Assembly: GCF_005435165.1 (NCBI RefSeq)
Contig: NZ_SGUC01000005.1
Location: forward strand, 62,001 to 126,000
Length of the DNA: 64,000 bases
Direction: 5' to 3'
Source of the DNA: Halorubrum sp. GN11_10-6_MGM
GTDB taxonomy: Archaea > Halobacteriota > Halobacteria > Halobacteriales > Haloferacaceae
Part shown: positions 13,880 through 52,615 of the stretch, piece after piece
Position numbering within the stretch: position 1 is the first letter of the stretch
How the letters are laid out: every line of letters starts with the position of its first letter
The notes under the pieces: generated by a model
What the model was told of the DNA's origin: nothing
Seen by the model: only the letters and a program-made list of their open reading frames with translations
Databases searched by the model: none
Made by a program: the position numbers and the translations under genes

Positions 13880-15010
13880 TCAGTCCGCGTCCTCGCCGAG
13901 CACCGCCGCGCGCATCTCCGGGATCGAGGCCGTGCTCTTCACCGCCGTGCCGCGGTAGTGCGCCCGGCTCGCCTCGTGGCCGGCCCCGCGGACGCGCTCG
14001 ACGAACTCGTCCATCCCGATCGCGGGCTCGCCCCACTCCTTGTACAGCCGGTGCTGGTCGTAGTGCGTGGGGGTGTCGAGCTCTCGCGAGACGGTCCCGA
14101 GCAGCTTCCGCGCGCGTTTCGCCTCGCCCATGTCGTCGGTCACCTCGCGGCGGACGGCGCGCGCGAAGTCGGCGTCCGCGACCGGCCCGAGCCAGATCGG
14201 ACCGGCCGTGAGGACGCGGTCGCTCCCGCACTCCGGGCAGGCGTCGACCGGATCGGCGATGCGCCCGCGCGTCGCGGCACGCCAGAGGCAGTCCTCGCAG
14301 TGATCGACGTGGCCGAGGGCTTCGAGGCGGTCGTCGGCCGCGCGGGCGCCCGACTCCAGTTCGAGGTAGGTCCGTGCGTAGTGCCGGGAGACGTGCGAGA
14401 GGATCGGCGTCGCCGCCTTGTCGTAGCGCGCGGCGGTCCGGACCAGCGCGGAGATCAGCGTCCGGAGTCCCATCTCCGGGTGGTAGTCGGTGTTTCGCGG
14501 CACCGCCCCGTACTTGCGGATGCCGCTGTTGAGGTGGGCGCCACAGAGCGGCGCGGTGTCGGTGGCGGTGACGCAGACGAGGTTGCGGCCGTTGGCGAAC
14601 GCCGCGTCCGCGAAGGGGATCGGCGTGCCGTACGGGTCGAGGTCGACGACGTCGAACGGGCCCTCGTCGTACAGCAGGGCGTTGACGTCGCGGTGTACGG
14701 CCTCGCCGTCGAGGCCGTTCGCGTCGAGGTTCGCGGCGGCGAGGTCGACCGCGTCCGCGTCGACGTCGGCGCAGGTGGCGTCGTACCCCTCCGCCGCGGC
14801 GCGGACGCCGCGGATCCCCGAGGCGGCCATCGCGTCGAGGTACGAGGCCGCGCGGGGTTCGCGGTCGCGGTAGGCGCGCAGCGTCGCGACCGTCACGTCG
14901 CGGTTCAGCTCTTGGGTCGGGTTGAAGAAGACGCCGCCGCCGGTGCCCTCGCTGGCGCCGTCGCGGGCCTCCGGGACGGAGACGGTGAGTCCGCCCTCTT
15001 CGATGTCCAT
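13880..15010 (-). CDS. trm1: tRNA (guanine26-N2)-dimethyltransferase Trm1
   Basis: A 376-residue SAM-dependent enzyme that makes m2,2G26 in tRNAs. The start is set at [20 protein letters not shown] (15010). Visible motifs are [15 protein letters not shown], the SAM pocket [16 protein letters not shown], the catalytic-type [18 protein letters not shown], a Zn-binding region HCEDCLW...CPECGSDRV, and the tRNA-binding [16 protein letters not shown]. Length is normal for archaeal Trm1. Confidence 0.95.
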
Positions 15011-15138
15011 ACGACCGGTTCGGTCATCCGGACTAAAAGGACCGCGCTCCGGGGCCGGGAACGCCTCGGCGGCGAGCGGGCCGGTCGGCGGCAACGACAA
15101 TGGGAGGCTTTTACGCCGTGGGTGCGGAACTGAAACGT

Positions 15139-15204
15139 ATGAACGGAGTCACGGGAGAACGCTCGGGCGAAGGCGGCGGCGACACGGGAGGGCGAGGATG
15201 GTAA
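15139..15204 (+). CDS. Possible 21-codon leader ORF overlapping the repeat-protein start
   Basis: [20 protein letters not shown]... begins at 15139, about 27 bp from a TATA-like cttttacg (15108-15115), exactly where a leaderless mRNA would start. It ends in ATGGTAA, whose ATG is the start codon of the coiled-coil protein. A GGAGG at 15187-15191 precedes that second ATG. Coupled translation from a leader is possible; the peptide itself has no recognisable motif. Confidence 0.35.
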
Positions 15205-16091
15205 GTCCGGCGCGGGTCGACGCGATAACCGACATCGCGTACGGCGCGCTGATCGCACTGTCGATCGTCCTCATCGCGACCACCCAGCAGAACGACATCG
15301 CGATCGCGTTCGGGATCGGGGTGTTCGCCTCGTACGTGGTCCACGTCGTCTGGAAGATGGCCCGGTTCGACCCGGACTGGATGACCCGCGAGGTGGCGGA
15401 CCAGGTCGGGAAACAGGTCGAAGAGAGCGTCGGCGAGACCGTCGACAAGGAGGTTGAGAAGACGGTGGGAGAGACCGTGGAAAAGACCGTCGGCGAGACC
15501 GTCGACAAGGAGGTTGAGAAGACGGTGGGAGAGACCGTGGAAAAGACCGTCGGCGAGACGGTGAGCAAGGAGGTCGAGAAGACCGTCGAGGAGACTGTCG
15601 GCGAGAAAGTCGAGGAGACGGTGAGCAAGGAGGTCGAAAAGAGCGTCGGCGAGACCGTCAACAAGGAGGTCAGCGAGGTCGCCGACGACGTGAGCGACAC
15701 TGTCAGCGAGGAAGTCACGGGGAAAGTCGAGGAGACCGTCGGCGAGACGGTCGAGAAAACCGTCGAAGAGAAGGTTGGCGAAACCGTCGAAGAGACGGTC
15801 GGCGAGAAGGTGGAGGAGACCGTCGGCGAGAAGGTCGAAGAAACCGTAGAGCGAACCGTCGAAGAGACGGTCGGCGAGAAGGTCGAAGAAACCGTGGAGA
15901 AAACCGTCGAGGAGACCGTCGGCGAGAAGGTGGAGGAGACGGTCGAAGAAACCGTGGAGAAAACCGTCGAGGAGACTGTCGGCGAGAAGGTGGAGGAGAC
16001 CGTCGAGGGCAACGAGGCGAACACAGAGGAGAGCGACGAGACGGACGAACAGGGAGACGGCGAAGGGACCGAGCGGCGCGACGACTCGTAA
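15198..16091 (+). CDS. Membrane-anchored protein made of four-residue (VxxT/VxxK) repeats
   Basis: A 297-residue protein starting [20 protein letters not shown]. Two N-terminal membrane spans (about residues 7-27 and 31-51) precede an aromatic patch (VVWKMARFDPDW). Then come roughly 220 residues in which Val recurs every fourth position: VEETVGEKVEETV, VEKTVGETVDKEV and variants. The tail is acidic and disordered. Strict four-residue spacing differs from ordinary heptad coiled coils and is reminiscent of amphipathic-helix repeat proteins. GGAGG lies 7-11 bases before the ATG. Topology suggests a rod outside or inside the membrane; function unknown. Confidence 0.8.
   Translation: MVSPARVDAITDIAYGALIALSIVLIATTQQNDIAIAFGIGVFASYVVHVVWKMARFDPDWMTREVADQVGKQVEESVGETVDKEVEKTVGETVEKTVGETVDKEVEKTVGETVEKTVGETVSKEVEKTVEETVGEKVEETVSKEVEKSVGETVNKEVSEVADDVSDTVSEEVTGKVEETVGETVEKTVEEKVGETVEETVGEKVEETVGEKVEETVERTVEETVGEKVEETVEKTVEETVGEKVEETVEETVEKTVEETVGEKVEETVEGNEANTEESDETDEQGDGEGTERRDDS
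15428..15559 (+). repeat. Exact 60-bp tandem repeat inside the rod protein
   Basis: Bases 15428-15499 are identical to 15488-15559, a period of 60 bp (20 codons, five four-residue units). Less perfect copies continue to about 15990. Identity at third codon positions points to recent duplication or gene conversion. Confidence 0.9.
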
Positions 16092-16905: not shown

Positions 16906-18387
16906 TTAGTCCGAACCGAACATCTGGCGCATCATCGGATGCATCTCCATCAGCTGCTCCTCGGCGATCTCCTCGTACAGCTTGTACGTGATAGAGACCG
17001 CGAGCAGCAGCCCGGTTCCGGAGACCTGTCCGATGGTACCGAGCAGGTTCGCCATCACGGCGAGCAGCCCGACGAGGGCGCCGCCGATGACGGTCACCTG
17101 CGGGATGTACCGCTCCATGACCTTCTCGACGACCTGCGGGTTCCGGCGGAATCCGGGGATCTGCATCCCGGAGTTCTGGATCTGTTTCGCGGTCGCCTCC
17201 GGCCCCATGCCGGTGGTCTCGACCCAGAAGATCGCGAAGATGGCGCCGCCGACGATCATGAACGTGAGGTCGACGGCGAGCCGGATCGCGATCATCCACG
17301 GCTCGACGGACGCCGGGATCTCACCCAAGAACCACATCCACTGTCCGCGGCTCTGGATCGGGTTCAGGTAGTAGAACAGCCCGCCGATGGGCTGGCCCTG
17401 TTCGCTGTAGGTGCCGAGCACCGCGGGCATCCCCGCCCACTGTGAGGAGAGGATCTGCCCGAGGAACTGGATGTTCGCCTGCAGCGCACGGACGAGGATC
17501 ATCGGCAGGACGGACGCGTAGATGAGCTTCACCGGGAAGCGTCCGCGAGCGCCCTTCACGCGGGCGTGCGACAGCGGGATCTCGACGCGAACGGACTCCG
17601 CGTACACGACGATCCCGAAGATGAACACCGTGGTGAAAAGCGCCAGAATGTTCCCCGGATCGAAGAGGAGGTTCTGGAGCCCCTCGGCCGTGAACGGCGA
17701 CATCGACACCGGCACGTTACCGAAGATGACGCCGTACCAGCTCGCGAAGAAGCCGGACGCGCCGAGCGCGGAGAAGCTGAAGAAGCCGCCGACGATCTGC
17801 TGGCTCACCGACGCGATGATGAACAGCCCGACGCCGGAGCCGACTCCCCATTTGCTCACGATCTCGTCCATGAACAGGATGAGGATACCGCCGACGAAGA
17901 TCTGTGCGAAGATCAACACCTGGACGCCGAACGTGCCGATACCGAGCGCGCTCGCGACCGCGTCGTCGGCCGGAAGGAAGCCGCCGGTGAACACCATCGG
18001 CGCCGCCGTGAGGGCGGTGACGATGACCACCAGCAGCTTCTGAAGGCCCTGATAGAGGACCTGGTCGCGCGGGTCGTTCTCCGTGTCGAGTCCGAGGAGG
18101 TTCGCACCGCCCAACAGCTGGAGGACGATGGACGCCGTGACGATCGGTCCGATACCGACCTGTAGCAGCGACCCGGATGAGCCGGCGAGAACGGACCGGA
18201 ACTGCCCGAAGAAGTCCGACCCCTGCCCGACCGCCAACCCGAACGGGTTGATGTTGGTCAGGAAGAAGTAGACGATCAGGATCCCGGCCGTCCACGTGAG
18301 CTTCCGTTTGAACGGGACGTGTCCCGCGGGCCGCTCCACGACGGGCATCCGCGAGAGCACCGGTTCGGCGGCCTCCTTCCAGCTCAT
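16906..18387 (-). CDS. secY: Preprotein translocase subunit SecY
   Basis: A 493-residue, ten-span channel subunit of the Sec translocon that exports and inserts proteins across the cytoplasmic membrane. The N-terminus MSWKEAAEPVLSRMPVVERP and the first span LTWTAGILIVYFFL are typical of archaeal SecY, as are the plug region and the positively charged loop HARVKGARGRFPVKLIYASV. It is the last gene of the cluster, 1 bp after uL15, and is followed by a hairpin terminator. Confidence 0.97.
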   Translation of the reverse strand: MSWKEAAEPVLSRMPVVERPAGHVPFKRKLTWTAGILIVYFFLTNINPFGLAVGQGSDFFGQFRSVLAGSSGSLLQVGIGPIVTASIVLQLLGGANLLGLDTENDPRDQVLYQGLQKLLVVIVTALTAAPMVFTGGFLPADDAVASALGIGTFGVQVLIFAQIFVGGILILFMDEIVSKWGVGSGVGLFIIASVSQQIVGGFFSFSALGASGFFASWYGVIFGNVPVSMSPFTAEGLQNLLFDPGNILALFTTVFIFGIVVYAESVRVEIPLSHARVKGARGRFPVKLIYASVLPMILVRALQANIQFLGQILSSQWAGMPAVLGTYSEQGQPIGGLFYYLNPIQSRGQWMWFLGEIPASVEPWMIAIRLAVDLTFMIVGGAIFAIFWVETTGMGPEATAKQIQNSGMQIPGFRRNPQVVEKVMERYIPQVTVIGGALVGLLAVMANLLGTIGQVSGTGLLLAVSITYKLYEEIAEEQLMEMHPMMRQMFGSD

Positions 18388-49287: not shown

Positions 49288-50094
49288 TCAGTACAGGTCG
49301 TCCAACTCCTCCTCGACGTGCGAGTGCTCTTCCGCCGGGAACTCGCCGTTCGTCACGGCCTCCTTGTACGTCTCGACGGCGTCGACCATCTCCGTCCGCA
49401 CGTCGCCGAACCGCTTCGCGAACGGCGGCGACCACTCGCCGAGGCCGACCGCGTCGTTGATCACCAGCACCTGTCCGTCGCAGTCGGGGCCGGCACCGAT
49501 GCCGATCGTCGGTATCTCCAGCGCCTCCGTCACCGCGCCCGCGAGGTTCGACGGGACGTGCTCCAACACGAGCGCGAACGCCCCGGCGTCGGCGTGGGCG
49601 CCCGCCAGATCGATTATCTCCTCGGCGGCGTCCTGCTCGGTCCCCTGCCGGGTGTACCCGCCGAGCCGGTTCACGTGCTGGGGGGTCAAGCCGAGGTGCG
49701 CCATCACGGGGATCCCGACCTCCGCCATCCTGCGCGTCGTCTCGACGGTGTGCGGGCCGCTCTCGATCTTCACCGCGTCGGCGTTCGCCTCCTTCAGCAG
49801 CCGGCCCGCGTTCCGGACCGACTCGGCCTCGTCGACGCCGAAGGTGAGGAACGGCATGTCGGCGACGACGAGGGCGTCGTCGGTCGCGCGCGCCACGGCC
49901 GCGGTCCGGCTCGCGACCTCGTCGAACGTGACGGGGAGCGTGGAGTCGTAGCCGAGGGCGGCGTTGCCCATGCTGTCGCCGACGAGAATGACGTCGATTC
50001 CCGCCTCGTCGACGATCGCCGCCGTCGGGGCGTCGTAGGCGGTCAGCATCGTGATCGGATCGTCGCCGTCCCGCAGTCCCCTCGTCGTGGTCAT
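49288..50094 (-). CDS. panB: 3-methyl-2-oxobutanoate hydroxymethyltransferase
   Basis: A 268-residue TIM barrel making ketopantoate from alpha-ketoisovalerate and methylene-tetrahydrofolate/pterin, the first step to pantothenate and CoA. ITMLTAYDAPTAAIVDEAGI, ILVGDSMGNAALGYDSTLPV (metal Asp), VKIESGPHTVETTRRM, GIPVMAHLGLTPQHVNRLGG and the catalytic Glu in FALVLEHVPSNLAGAV are intact. TATA-like ttttacgg 28 bp upstream. Confidence 0.96.
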   Translation of the reverse strand: MTTTRGLRDGDDPITMLTAYDAPTAAIVDEAGIDVILVGDSMGNAALGYDSTLPVTFDEVASRTAAVARATDDALVVADMPFLTFGVDEAESVRNAGRLLKEANADAVKIESGPHTVETTRRMAEVGIPVMAHLGLTPQHVNRLGGYTRQGTEQDAAEEIIDLAGAHADAGAFALVLEHVPSNLAGAVTEALEIPTIGIGAGPDCDGQVLVINDAVGLGEWSPPFAKRFGDVRTEMVDAVETYKEAVTNGEFPAEEHSHVEEELDDLY

Positions 50095-50305
50095 GCCTCG
50101 GAGTCACCCCCGCGACGCCGTAAAATCGTCGGGAACCGGAAAGCGAGCGCGACGGCGAACCGGCGGCCCCGACGAACCGGCGGCCCCGGCGGACCGGCAG
50201 CGACGGCGCTGGCGCCGACTTCCCCCGGGTTCCGGAGACGACCCACGCCGCGTTCTGCCGACGACGACCGCCACCGATTTGCCGCTCCGCCGCGGAGTCC
50301 GTGGC

Positions 50306-50686
50306 GTGCAACCAGTCGAGCGGGCCGAGTACGAGGGGGTCGACTACGCGTGGGTGATGCAGACGACGTTCGTCGTCACCATCCTCGTCGGCGCCCCCGT
50401 CGTGGCCCTGCTGTCGACCGCCGTCACCCTCGACTCGTGGGGGGCGCGCGCCGCGTTCGCGGTCCGGGTCGGCGCGCCCATCTGGTTCGTCACCGCCGTC
50501 GCCGTCGCGCTGTACGCGAGGCGGACCGAGGCCGGCGACGGCGGGAGCGGTGAGAGTGGGAGTAGCGAGAACGGGAGCGGTGAGAGTGGGAGTAGCGAGA
50601 ACGGGAGCGGCGACACCGACGAGGCGGACGCTGAGGACGCGGGCAAGAGCGCTGCGGAGCCGGACGAAGCCGAAAAACCCGATTGA
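50306..50686 (+). CDS. Two-span membrane protein with a Gly/Ser/Asp-rich tail (DUF5822-like)
   Basis: About 126 residues from a GTG at 50306. EGVDYAWVMQTTFVVTILVG and APVVALLSTAVTLDSWG then AAFAVRVGAPIWFVTAVAVA form two membrane helices, resembling a conserved haloarchaeal family (I believe DUF5822; from memory). The tail contains an exact 30-bp duplication (GESGSSENGS twice) and ends acidic. Function unknown. Confidence 0.7.
   Translation: MQPVERAEYEGVDYAWVMQTTFVVTILVGAPVVALLSTAVTLDSWGARAAFAVRVGAPIWFVTAVAVALYARRTEAGDGGSGESGSSENGSGESGSSENGSGDTDEADAEDAGKSAAEPDEAEKPD
50551..50610 (+). repeat. Exact 30-bp tandem duplication
   Basis: Bases 50551-50580 are identical to 50581-50610 (start TGAGAGTGGGAGTAGCGAGA). 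In frame within the membrane-protein tail, adding ten residues per unit; length may vary between strains. Confidence 0.92.
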
Positions 50687-50720: not shown

Positions 50721-51308
50721 TCACTCGGCGAGCAGGTCAGCGACCCACGCGAAATCGACGCCGCCGCGCTCGGCGGCGACCGCGTCGGTCTCCGAGTCGC
50801 CGACGAACAGCGCGTCCTGGGGGGCGGCGCCGAGCCGGTCGATCGCCGCGAGCAGCGACTCCGGGTCCGGCTTGTGGGTCTCGACGGTGTCGCGGCCGAC
50901 GATCGCGTCCGAGACCAAGGCGTCGCCGAGGCCGTGCGTCTCGACCGCGATCCGACACGCCTCCTCGCAGTTGAGCGAGCAGACCCCCGCCGGCGGGTGG
51001 GAGGCGGCGCGGTCGGCGGTCGGCGTCGCGAGTCGGTCGCCGAGCGGGAGGCGGGTCGAGTCGCGGGCGCCGGGGCGCTCGTGGAGCGCGATCGCCTCCT
51101 CGACCTCGGTCCGGATCCCGTAGTCGTCGGCCGCGCCGAGGAGCCCCCACAGCTCCTCGGTCGGCGGGATGAGCGCGTGCTCAGCGTACGCGTCGAGGAC
51201 CGCGTCCGCGACCGCGCCCCAGTCGACCGCGAGCTCGACGAGCGTGCCGTCGAGGTCGTAGACGACCGCCTCGTAGCCGGCGAGCCGGGGGCCAATCCGG
51301 TCGGTCAC
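50721..51308 (-). CDS. HAD-superfamily hydrolase
   Basis: A 195-residue phosphatase-like protein. Nucleophile motif VVYDLDGTLVELAVDW, Lys motif VETHKPDPESLLAAIDRLG and acidic motif FVGDSETDAVAAERGG are the HAD I, III and IV motifs; the cap is small. Phosphoglycolate phosphatase is the usual annotation for such proteins, but specificity is not visible. The GTG start overlaps the acyl-CoA dehydrogenase stop by 4 bp. Confidence 0.88.
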   Translation of the reverse strand: MTDRIGPRLAGYEAVVYDLDGTLVELAVDWGAVADAVLDAYAEHALIPPTEELWGLLGAADDYGIRTEVEEAIALHERPGARDSTRLPLGDRLATPTADRAASHPPAGVCSLNCEEACRIAVETHGLGDALVSDAIVGRDTVETHKPDPESLLAAIDRLGAAPQDALFVGDSETDAVAAERGGVDFAWVADLLAE

Positions 51309-52477
51309 TCGCCGAACACCCCCCGGGCGATGATCGTCTTCTGGATCTCGGTCGTCCCCTCGTAGATCTCCGTGATCTTCGCGTCGCGGTAGAGCCGCTC
51401 GACGTCGAACTCGGTCGTGTAGCCGTAACCGCCGTGGATCTGGACCGCCTCGTTCGTCACCGACATCGCGGCCTCGCTGGCGCGGTACTTCGCCTTCGAG
51501 GCGGCGACGCGGTAGTCCTCGCCCGCCTCGGCCTGTCGACACGCCTCGCGGACGAGCAGCCGCGCCGCCGACACGTCGGTCGCCATCTCCGCGAGCTTGT
51601 GCCGGATCGTCTGGATGTCGGCGATCGGGCGGTCGAACTGCTCGCGCTCGGTCGCGTACGATTTCGCCTCGTCCAGCGCGGCCTGCGCCACCCCGACCGC
51701 CTGCGCCGCGATCCCGATCCGGCCCTCGGTGAGCGTCCGGAACGCGGCCGAGAGCCCCTTCCCCGGCTCGGTGAGTCGGTTCTCGGCCGGGACCCGGCAG
51801 CCGTCGAAGCTGATGCCGGTCGTGTCCGACGCGCGGAGCCCGAGCTTCTCCTCCTTCTTGCCGACCTCGAAGCCGTCGGTGTCCGCGGGGACGAGGAACT
51901 GGGTGATCGCGTCGTCATCGGGCTCCCGGTCCGGGTCGTCAACCTTCGCGAAGACGATCGCGACGCCGCCGCGGTTCCCGTTCGTGATCCACTGCTTCTC
52001 GCCGTTCAGGGCGTACTCGTCGGTCTCGGGGTCGTACGTCGCTGTCGTCGACATCTCGGCCGGGTTCGAGCCGGCGTGCGGCTCGGAGAGACAGAACATC
52101 CCGACCGGGCGCCCGGTCTCGGCCATCTCGGGGAGCCACGCCTCGCGCTGCTCGTCCGTGCCGAACTCGGCGATACAGGAGGTTGCGAGACAGTGGACGG
52201 AGAGGGCGGTCGCGACCGCGAGCGACCCGTGCGCCAGCGCCTCGTTGACGACCGCGTAGGTCGTCTCGTCGGCACCGAACCCGCCGTACTCCTCCGGGAC
52301 CGTCAGCCCCGTCAGGCCGAGTTCCGCGAGCTCGTCCCACACGTCCTCCGGGAACGTCTCCGTCTCGTCCGCCTCGGCCGCGGTCGGCCGGACCTCCTCG
52401 GCCGCGAACTCCGCGACGAGGTCGCGGACCGCCTGCTGTTCGTCGGTGAGCGCCGAGCCGACGCGTGCTCCGGTCAT
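51305..52477 (-). CDS. Acyl-CoA dehydrogenase
   Basis: A 390-residue FAD enzyme oxidising acyl-CoA to trans-2-enoyl-CoA. LTGLTVPEEYGGFGADETTY, MFCLSEPHAGSNPAEMSTTA, YALNGEKQWITNGNRGGVAI, the flavin-binding QIHGGYGYTTEFDVERLYRD and the catalytic-base region ITEIYEGTTEIQKTIIAR are complete. Electrons would go to ETF. Translationally coupled to the HAD hydrolase. Confidence 0.95.
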   Translation of the reverse strand: MTGARVGSALTDEQQAVRDLVAEFAAEEVRPTAAEADETETFPEDVWDELAELGLTGLTVPEEYGGFGADETTYAVVNEALAHGSLAVATALSVHCLATSCIAEFGTDEQREAWLPEMAETGRPVGMFCLSEPHAGSNPAEMSTTATYDPETDEYALNGEKQWITNGNRGGVAIVFAKVDDPDREPDDDAITQFLVPADTDGFEVGKKEEKLGLRASDTTGISFDGCRVPAENRLTEPGKGLSAAFRTLTEGRIGIAAQAVGVAQAALDEAKSYATEREQFDRPIADIQTIRHKLAEMATDVSAARLLVREACRQAEAGEDYRVAASKAKYRASEAAMSVTNEAVQIHGGYGYTTEFDVERLYRDAKITEIYEGTTEIQKTIIARGVFGE

Positions 52478-52615
52478 GTCACCGCCTTCGGACCCTCACC
52501 GAAAAAGGTGAGCGATCGGCCGAGTGGAAGGCGGGGCTGGTGGAAGGCGAGGCCGGTGGAAAGCGGGGCCGGTGGAAGGCGAGGCCGAGTGGAAGGAGAG
52601 GCGAGTGGAAAGCGT

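Follow-up and report, generated by a model that had tools for sequence, protein, structure and literature searches.

Bacterial PitA phosphate importers are paired with PitR regulators by gene adjacency and co-occurrence, and each accessory family serves its own transporter family, with clade-specific accessory proteins adjoining pitA (PMC13170248). Where PitR is missing, pitA often lies beside the gene for SCO1846, an unrelated and uncharacterised small actinobacterial membrane protein (PMC13170248). For helical assemblies, the published estimate of the upper limit for coiled coils is about 3.9 residues per turn, and 4.0 is thought to be inaccessible (PMC4786415); right-handed coiled coils include the hendecad (11/3), the pentadecad (15/4) and the local 19/5 period of YadA (PMC4786415). 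In glycophorin A, whose helices form a right-handed dimer, a small residue and Val recur every four residues (PMC13351972).

The locus described here, found in a 64,000-nucleotide stretch of Halorubrum sp. GN11_10-6_MGM DNA (the window), encodes a protein with Val at almost every fourth position of its tail, and is referred to as the tetrad gene. As with the PitR / DUF47 (PhoU_div) regulators of PitA, the genes of its family are putative accessory genes that lie beside a transporter gene and track the presence of one specific clade of transporters (PMC13170248). Unlike these regulators, the tetrad protein is predicted to be a membrane hairpin with a long stalk, and a Pfam scan of it gave no match to PhoU_div (PF01865), which sets it apart from PitR / DUF47. 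Proteins of the SCO1846 type are likewise membrane proteins encoded beside a PiT-type gene, a likeness drawn by description only, and no tetrad tail has been reported for SCO1846 (PMC13170248).

The tetrad gene and its product

The gene is an ORF of 297 codons on the + strand with its ATG at 15198 and a stop codon ending at 16091, divergent from trm1 (13880-15100) and followed downstream by secY (16906-18387) on the opposite strand. Its features are as follows.

15198..16091, +: whole gene, 297 aa plus stop, with two-span head, tetrad tail and acidic C-terminus (ORF; conserved head)
15207..15281, +: predicted membrane helix 1, residues 4-28 (AlphaFold helix, pLDDT about 75; invariant P4, D8, D12, Y15, G16)
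15294..15365, +: predicted membrane helix 2, residues 33-56 (AlphaFold helix, pLDDT 75-83; invariant A37, G39, G41, Y46)
15351..15386, +: family signature WKMARFDPDWMT, residues 52-63, at the predicted cytoplasmic membrane boundary (invariant W52, K53, M54, R56, F57, D58, P59, W61, M62)
15393..16004, +: tetrad tail V66-V269, 52 Val (spacing count and shuffles; Val codon constraint)
15428..15499, +: exact 72-bp repeat, first copy (exact repeat search)
15488..15559, +: exact 72-bp repeat, second, overlapping copy, offset by 60 bp or five tetrads (exact repeat search)
15669..15680, +: lone three-residue step V158-V161 (VSEV), kept in most Halorubrum (spacing strings of relatives)
16005..16088, +: acidic C-terminal tail without repeat, residues 270-297 (sequence)

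All residues listed as invariant are so among 28 diverse family members. The two N-terminal spans that the initial annotation had put forward as an anchor coincide with the membrane helices predicted by AlphaFold at residues 4-28 and 33-56. Across 97 family proteins, Lys and Arg together averaged 1.1 over the first 12 residues, 0.12 over the loop between the spans and 2.6 just after span 2. The positive-inside rule is well established, and given this charge distribution both chain ends are expected to be cytoplasmic, so that the whole tail most likely lies in the cytoplasm. A surface or S-layer rod was also considered and is disfavoured, as the charge distribution speaks against it.

Distribution of the family

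With the first 79 residues as query, matches were obtained in 48 of 59 related genomes, and a head profile of 28 rows matched 205 of 292 Halobacteria genomes, representing 59 of 77 genera. This conservation of the head rules out a strain-specific oddity: a lack of homologues outside this strain, which the initial annotation had named as a result that would refute it, does not occur, and homologues proved to be abundant. Hosts include Halorubrum, Natrialba, Natrinema, Natronococcus, Halovivax, Halosimplex, Halorientalis, Haloferax marinum, Halogeometricum, Halobaculum and Halorussus. The head was not found outside the class Halobacteria in a phylum-wide sample, in which all 32 matching genomes (of 247) belonged to the same genus, family or order. 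No named family in Pfam or NCBIfam fits the protein, the matches being weak, composition-driven and directed to the tail; one of many such matches, to DUF445 (PF04286), was confined to tail residues 60-222 and scored 27.8 bits, below the family cut-off of 33.8. A sequence search of the PDB returned nothing meaningful, and a search for other tetrad proteins in the same genome gave nothing better than E 0.008, bar an antisense frame of the tetrad gene itself. That the tetrad protein represents a class-wide, undescribed family of Halobacteria is well supported.

The product of L048:2782-3522 resembles the head distantly (E 6e-4), as a remote relative or a paralogue, and has a tail mixing four- and three-residue steps, possibly representing a second family built likewise. 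A conserved C-terminal cap, consisting of a short heptad piece followed by RVDRRPREDEVEE, is present in L102, L103, L040 and most Natrialbaceae loci and is lost in most Halorubrum, including the window.

Genomic association with PiT (PHO4) transporters

A PHO4 (PF01384) gene was found near the tetrad gene in 49 of 67 non-Halorubrum loci, in a sample that is rich in Natrialbaceae, includes some contigs ending close by and may contain a few duplicate loci. Several arrangements occur: PHO4 lies downstream on the same strand with an overlap of 1-10 bases in nine loci (L031, L032, L036, L121, L122, L123, L124, L126 and L129), downstream with a gap in L127 and L040, and divergently in L034, L035, L128 and most Natrialbaceae, the latter with a second PiT gene beyond a USP gene. 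In a separate whole-genome sample, in which positions were compared by eye, the tetrad gene and a PiT gene stood side by side in 42 of 52 non-Halorubrum genomes, and G095 carried two tetrad genes, each adjoining its own PiT gene. Since a genome of thousands of genes contains only about two to six PiT genes, this adjacency is far above chance. In Halorubrum the tetrad gene adjoins trm1 instead of a PiT gene, and in one group of loci it adjoins an AstE-like gene.

The mere presence of PHO4 was useless for examining co-occurrence, as all 292 genomes carry some PHO4 protein, and the comparison was thus made at the level of the PiT clade. In a quick maximum likelihood tree, the directly linked PiTs and the unlinked PiTs of Halorubrum (L155 and L156, the latter from the window genome) formed one clade (support 99), which excluded the PiTs of genomes without a tetrad gene (L136, L141, L144, L146), as well as the second PiT that Natrialbaceae carry on the USP side. 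Of the 86 genomes with the tetrad gene, 82 contained a close match to a linked PiT, compared with 5 of the 40 lacking the gene, at a cut of E 1e-136 or better that was set after the values had been seen (the outcome is alike at 140 and 145), and with the reservation that the genomes are related rather than independent, so that counts and p-values overstate the case. One gene occurred without the other in G027 and G118 and in G075, G145 and G154, and in G078, an exception to the co-occurrence, the PiT gene beside the tetrad gene has an internal stop. The genomic link between the tetrad family and one PiT clade is, on these comparisons, well supported.

These data also bear on the suggestion that the protein serves as a cytoskeletal stalk or organises the membrane in general, with no phosphate role, its adjacency to PiT being an inherited neighbourhood. 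The position of the Halorubrum gene beside trm1, away from PiT, and the few genomes with a tetrad gene and without the PiT clade fit this suggestion; it is nevertheless an improbable one in our judgement, given the several arrangements with PiT and the translational overlaps that different families show, the co-occurrence at clade level and the paired genes of G095. As the tetrad gene usually adjoins one type of PiT, its product is probably an undescribed partner of this importer and, by analogy of genomic context, most likely a PiT accessory subunit. In ten haloarchaeal genomes, PhoU_div (DUF47) was either missing or encoded apart from the linked genes, and no publication was found that describes a coiled-coil protein as a partner of phosphate transporters in haloarchaea.

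The USP-side PiTs of Natrialbaceae (L078-L118) form a clade of their own, and in these loci the tetrad gene thus lies between PiT genes of different clades.

Four-residue period and its conservation

All 52 hydrophobic residues of V66-V269 (204 residues) are Val, and 50 of the 51 successive spacings are four, the exception being a three-residue step at V158-V161, with a mean spacing of 3.98 and a longest run of 27 consecutive fours. Shuffling these residues 20,000 times yielded at most 16 four-spacings (mean 5.4) and a longest run of 6. The strict four-residue spacing over about 220 residues that had initially been described was hence borne out as a regular Val period, although its length had been put slightly too high and the phase shift, which is common to most Halorubrum relatives, had been missed.

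Among 97 family proteins, 3,094 of 3,504 hydrophobic tail spacings were four and 255 were three. Val occupied position a in 97.2% of the 3,094 tetrads; position b was mostly Glu or Gly, c Glu or Lys, and d Thr in 61%. The tetrads comprised 217 different words, and the period was kept across many families, with the longest runs of consecutive fours in L018 (64) and L009 (49). In ten sister pairs, Val codons showed 114 synonymous and 3 nonsynonymous differences, a count restricted to codons in phase in both genes, which could mask losses, whereas 25-37% of the differences at positions b, c and d were nonsynonymous; only five non-aliphatic residues in phase were found in the whole set of 97 proteins. 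The excess of synonymous differences at Val codons argues that the period is selected and does not result from slippage alone, and indicates that it is under strong purifying selection.

The frequency with which three-residue steps break the fours varies among relatives, which through these steps reach known right-handed periods: mean spacings were 3.71 in L098, 3.77 in L093 of Natrinema limicola, 3.80 in L092, 3.81 in L090, 3.87 in L096 and L101, 3.90 in L128 and 3.93 in L034, compared with exactly 4.00 over 176-256 residues in L018, L009, L036, L121 and L123. The tail of L124 from Haloferax marinum likewise has a period of 4.00.

Repeat expansion and tail length

The DNA-level repeats that had been noted at the outset, offset by 60 bp and exact over 72 bp, are real, and their proposed expansion is supported by a near relative, L002 (head 99% identical), in which the extra 20-residue unit is missing. 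This difference implies that the array expands and contracts, changing the length of the tail on short time scales; in the family as a whole, proteins range from 98 to 340 aa, the style of the tail being kept and its length not. Slippage by 12 bp supplies such length changes and leaves the intolerance of Val to change, even to Ile or Leu, unexplained.

An alternative reading is that the tail is mainly a product of repeat expansion whose period is mostly mutational (12-bp slippage), and that it forms an acidic brush, either disordered or a single helix, for which charge and extension are enough. We regard this as unlikely. The exact repeat, the spread of protein lengths, the low AlphaFold confidence in the tail (see below) and a tail net charge of -45 over 210 residues are in line with it, but a brush has no need of Val, and neither the Val codon counts, at a time when the other positions change freely, nor the persistence of the period across many families using so many tetrad words would be expected from it.

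Predicted structure of the tail

The AlphaFold single-chain model of the window protein had a mean pLDDT of 55, with values of mostly 38-67 in the tail, and that of the 118-aa short form L103 a mean of 67. In the L103 model, two membrane helices are followed by a long helix (58-95) and, beyond an RRPR turn, by a short one; this model gave no match by fold in the PDB. The initial proposal of a membrane-anchored rod is supported as far as the anchoring of the tail is concerned, and the rod itself is tentative, given the low AlphaFold confidence in the tail. A helix is suggested by the relatives, since their mixing of three- and four-residue steps points to one.

The period is incompatible with heptads, as had been claimed: in place of the alternating 3-4 spacing (3.5 residues per turn) of a heptad, the window tail has fours at all steps but one. 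Nor did AlphaFold yield a confident ordinary heptad coiled coil, the outcome that the initial annotation had named as refuting its reading. An ordinary heptad or hendecad coiled coil, its register hidden by a Val/Thr-rich sequence, is a very unlikely reading of the tail. Some relatives do carry a short stretch of heptads ahead of the RRPR motif, and the three-residue steps of some give about 15/4 to 19/5; against this stand the mean spacing in the window and the uninterrupted fours of L018 and L009, and a heptad register would place charged residues in half of the core.

Compared with right-handed coiled coils (mean spacing about 3.67-3.8), L092, L093 and L098 fall within the range, and the mixed steps of relatives from 3.71 to 3.87 are in or near the known periods (PMC4786415), whereas the window and the several relatives at 4.00 lie above about 3.9, and the core of the tetrad tail is almost only Val. 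Judged by their spacings, the extreme members (4.00) exceed the 3.33 to about 3.9 that is accepted for coiled coils. The TVxxTV pattern of the tail, with a small residue next to Val every four, is similar to that of glycophorin-A (GxxxG) dimers, by analogy only; the glycophorin helices are short and within the membrane, and the tetrad tail is long, acidic and soluble. A literature search on tetrad or four-residue coiled coils found nothing relevant.

A simple supercoil estimate for a period of 4.0 was right-handed and gave, at a close radius of 3.3 A, a pitch of 55 A, a pair crossing of 41 degrees and a helix bend of 11.7 degrees per turn, compared with 1.9-2.8 degrees per turn for a heptad (same radius and usual dimer radius); estimates for a tightly wound right-handed supercoil were a pitch of about 50-55 A and a bend of about 12-17 degrees per turn. 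We tentatively raise, as a reading with well under an even chance, that the tail may be a continuous multi-chain structure that keeps 4.0 residues per turn for as many as 256 residues, either such a supercoil or another fold beyond the accepted range, borne by an undescribed PiT accessory family. The chance of a new fold is substantial. The family makes the coiled-coil limit near 3.9 directly testable with a few natural tails, because a selected natural series grades from 3.71 to exactly 4.00 on one membrane anchor.

Proposed role

Taking the genomic and tail data together, we put at about even the chance that the protein is a membrane-anchored, cytoplasmic, helical and self-associating stalk, accessory to a single clade of halobacterial PiT (PHO4) importers. 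Its two membrane helices, with both chain termini facing the cytoplasm, would lie next to the PiT transporter or bind it, and the conserved WKMARFDP boundary would lead into a long, acidic, mainly alpha-helical stalk. The stripe of Val at every fourth residue may allow chains to pair, their helices packing closely in a right-handed sense. The head would be the part that touches the transporter, and the stalk, free in length but not in its Val stripe, would mediate a self-association that could cluster, hold, restrain or regulate the transporter. The protein offers a candidate answer to how a phosphate importer is matched with an accessory protein in haloarchaea, where no PitR gene was found next to the linked PiT genes.

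Other repeats in the window

About six 16-bp tandem copies of GGCCGGTGGAAGGCGA occupy positions 52518-52614 in the gap between two minus-strand genes, upstream of an acyl-CoA-dehydrogenase-like ORF (51305-52477). A perfect 30-bp tandem repeat at 50542-50610, in the 3' part of an ORF on the + strand (50051-50686), encodes Gly/Ser/Glu-rich repeats that follow two likely membrane spans.
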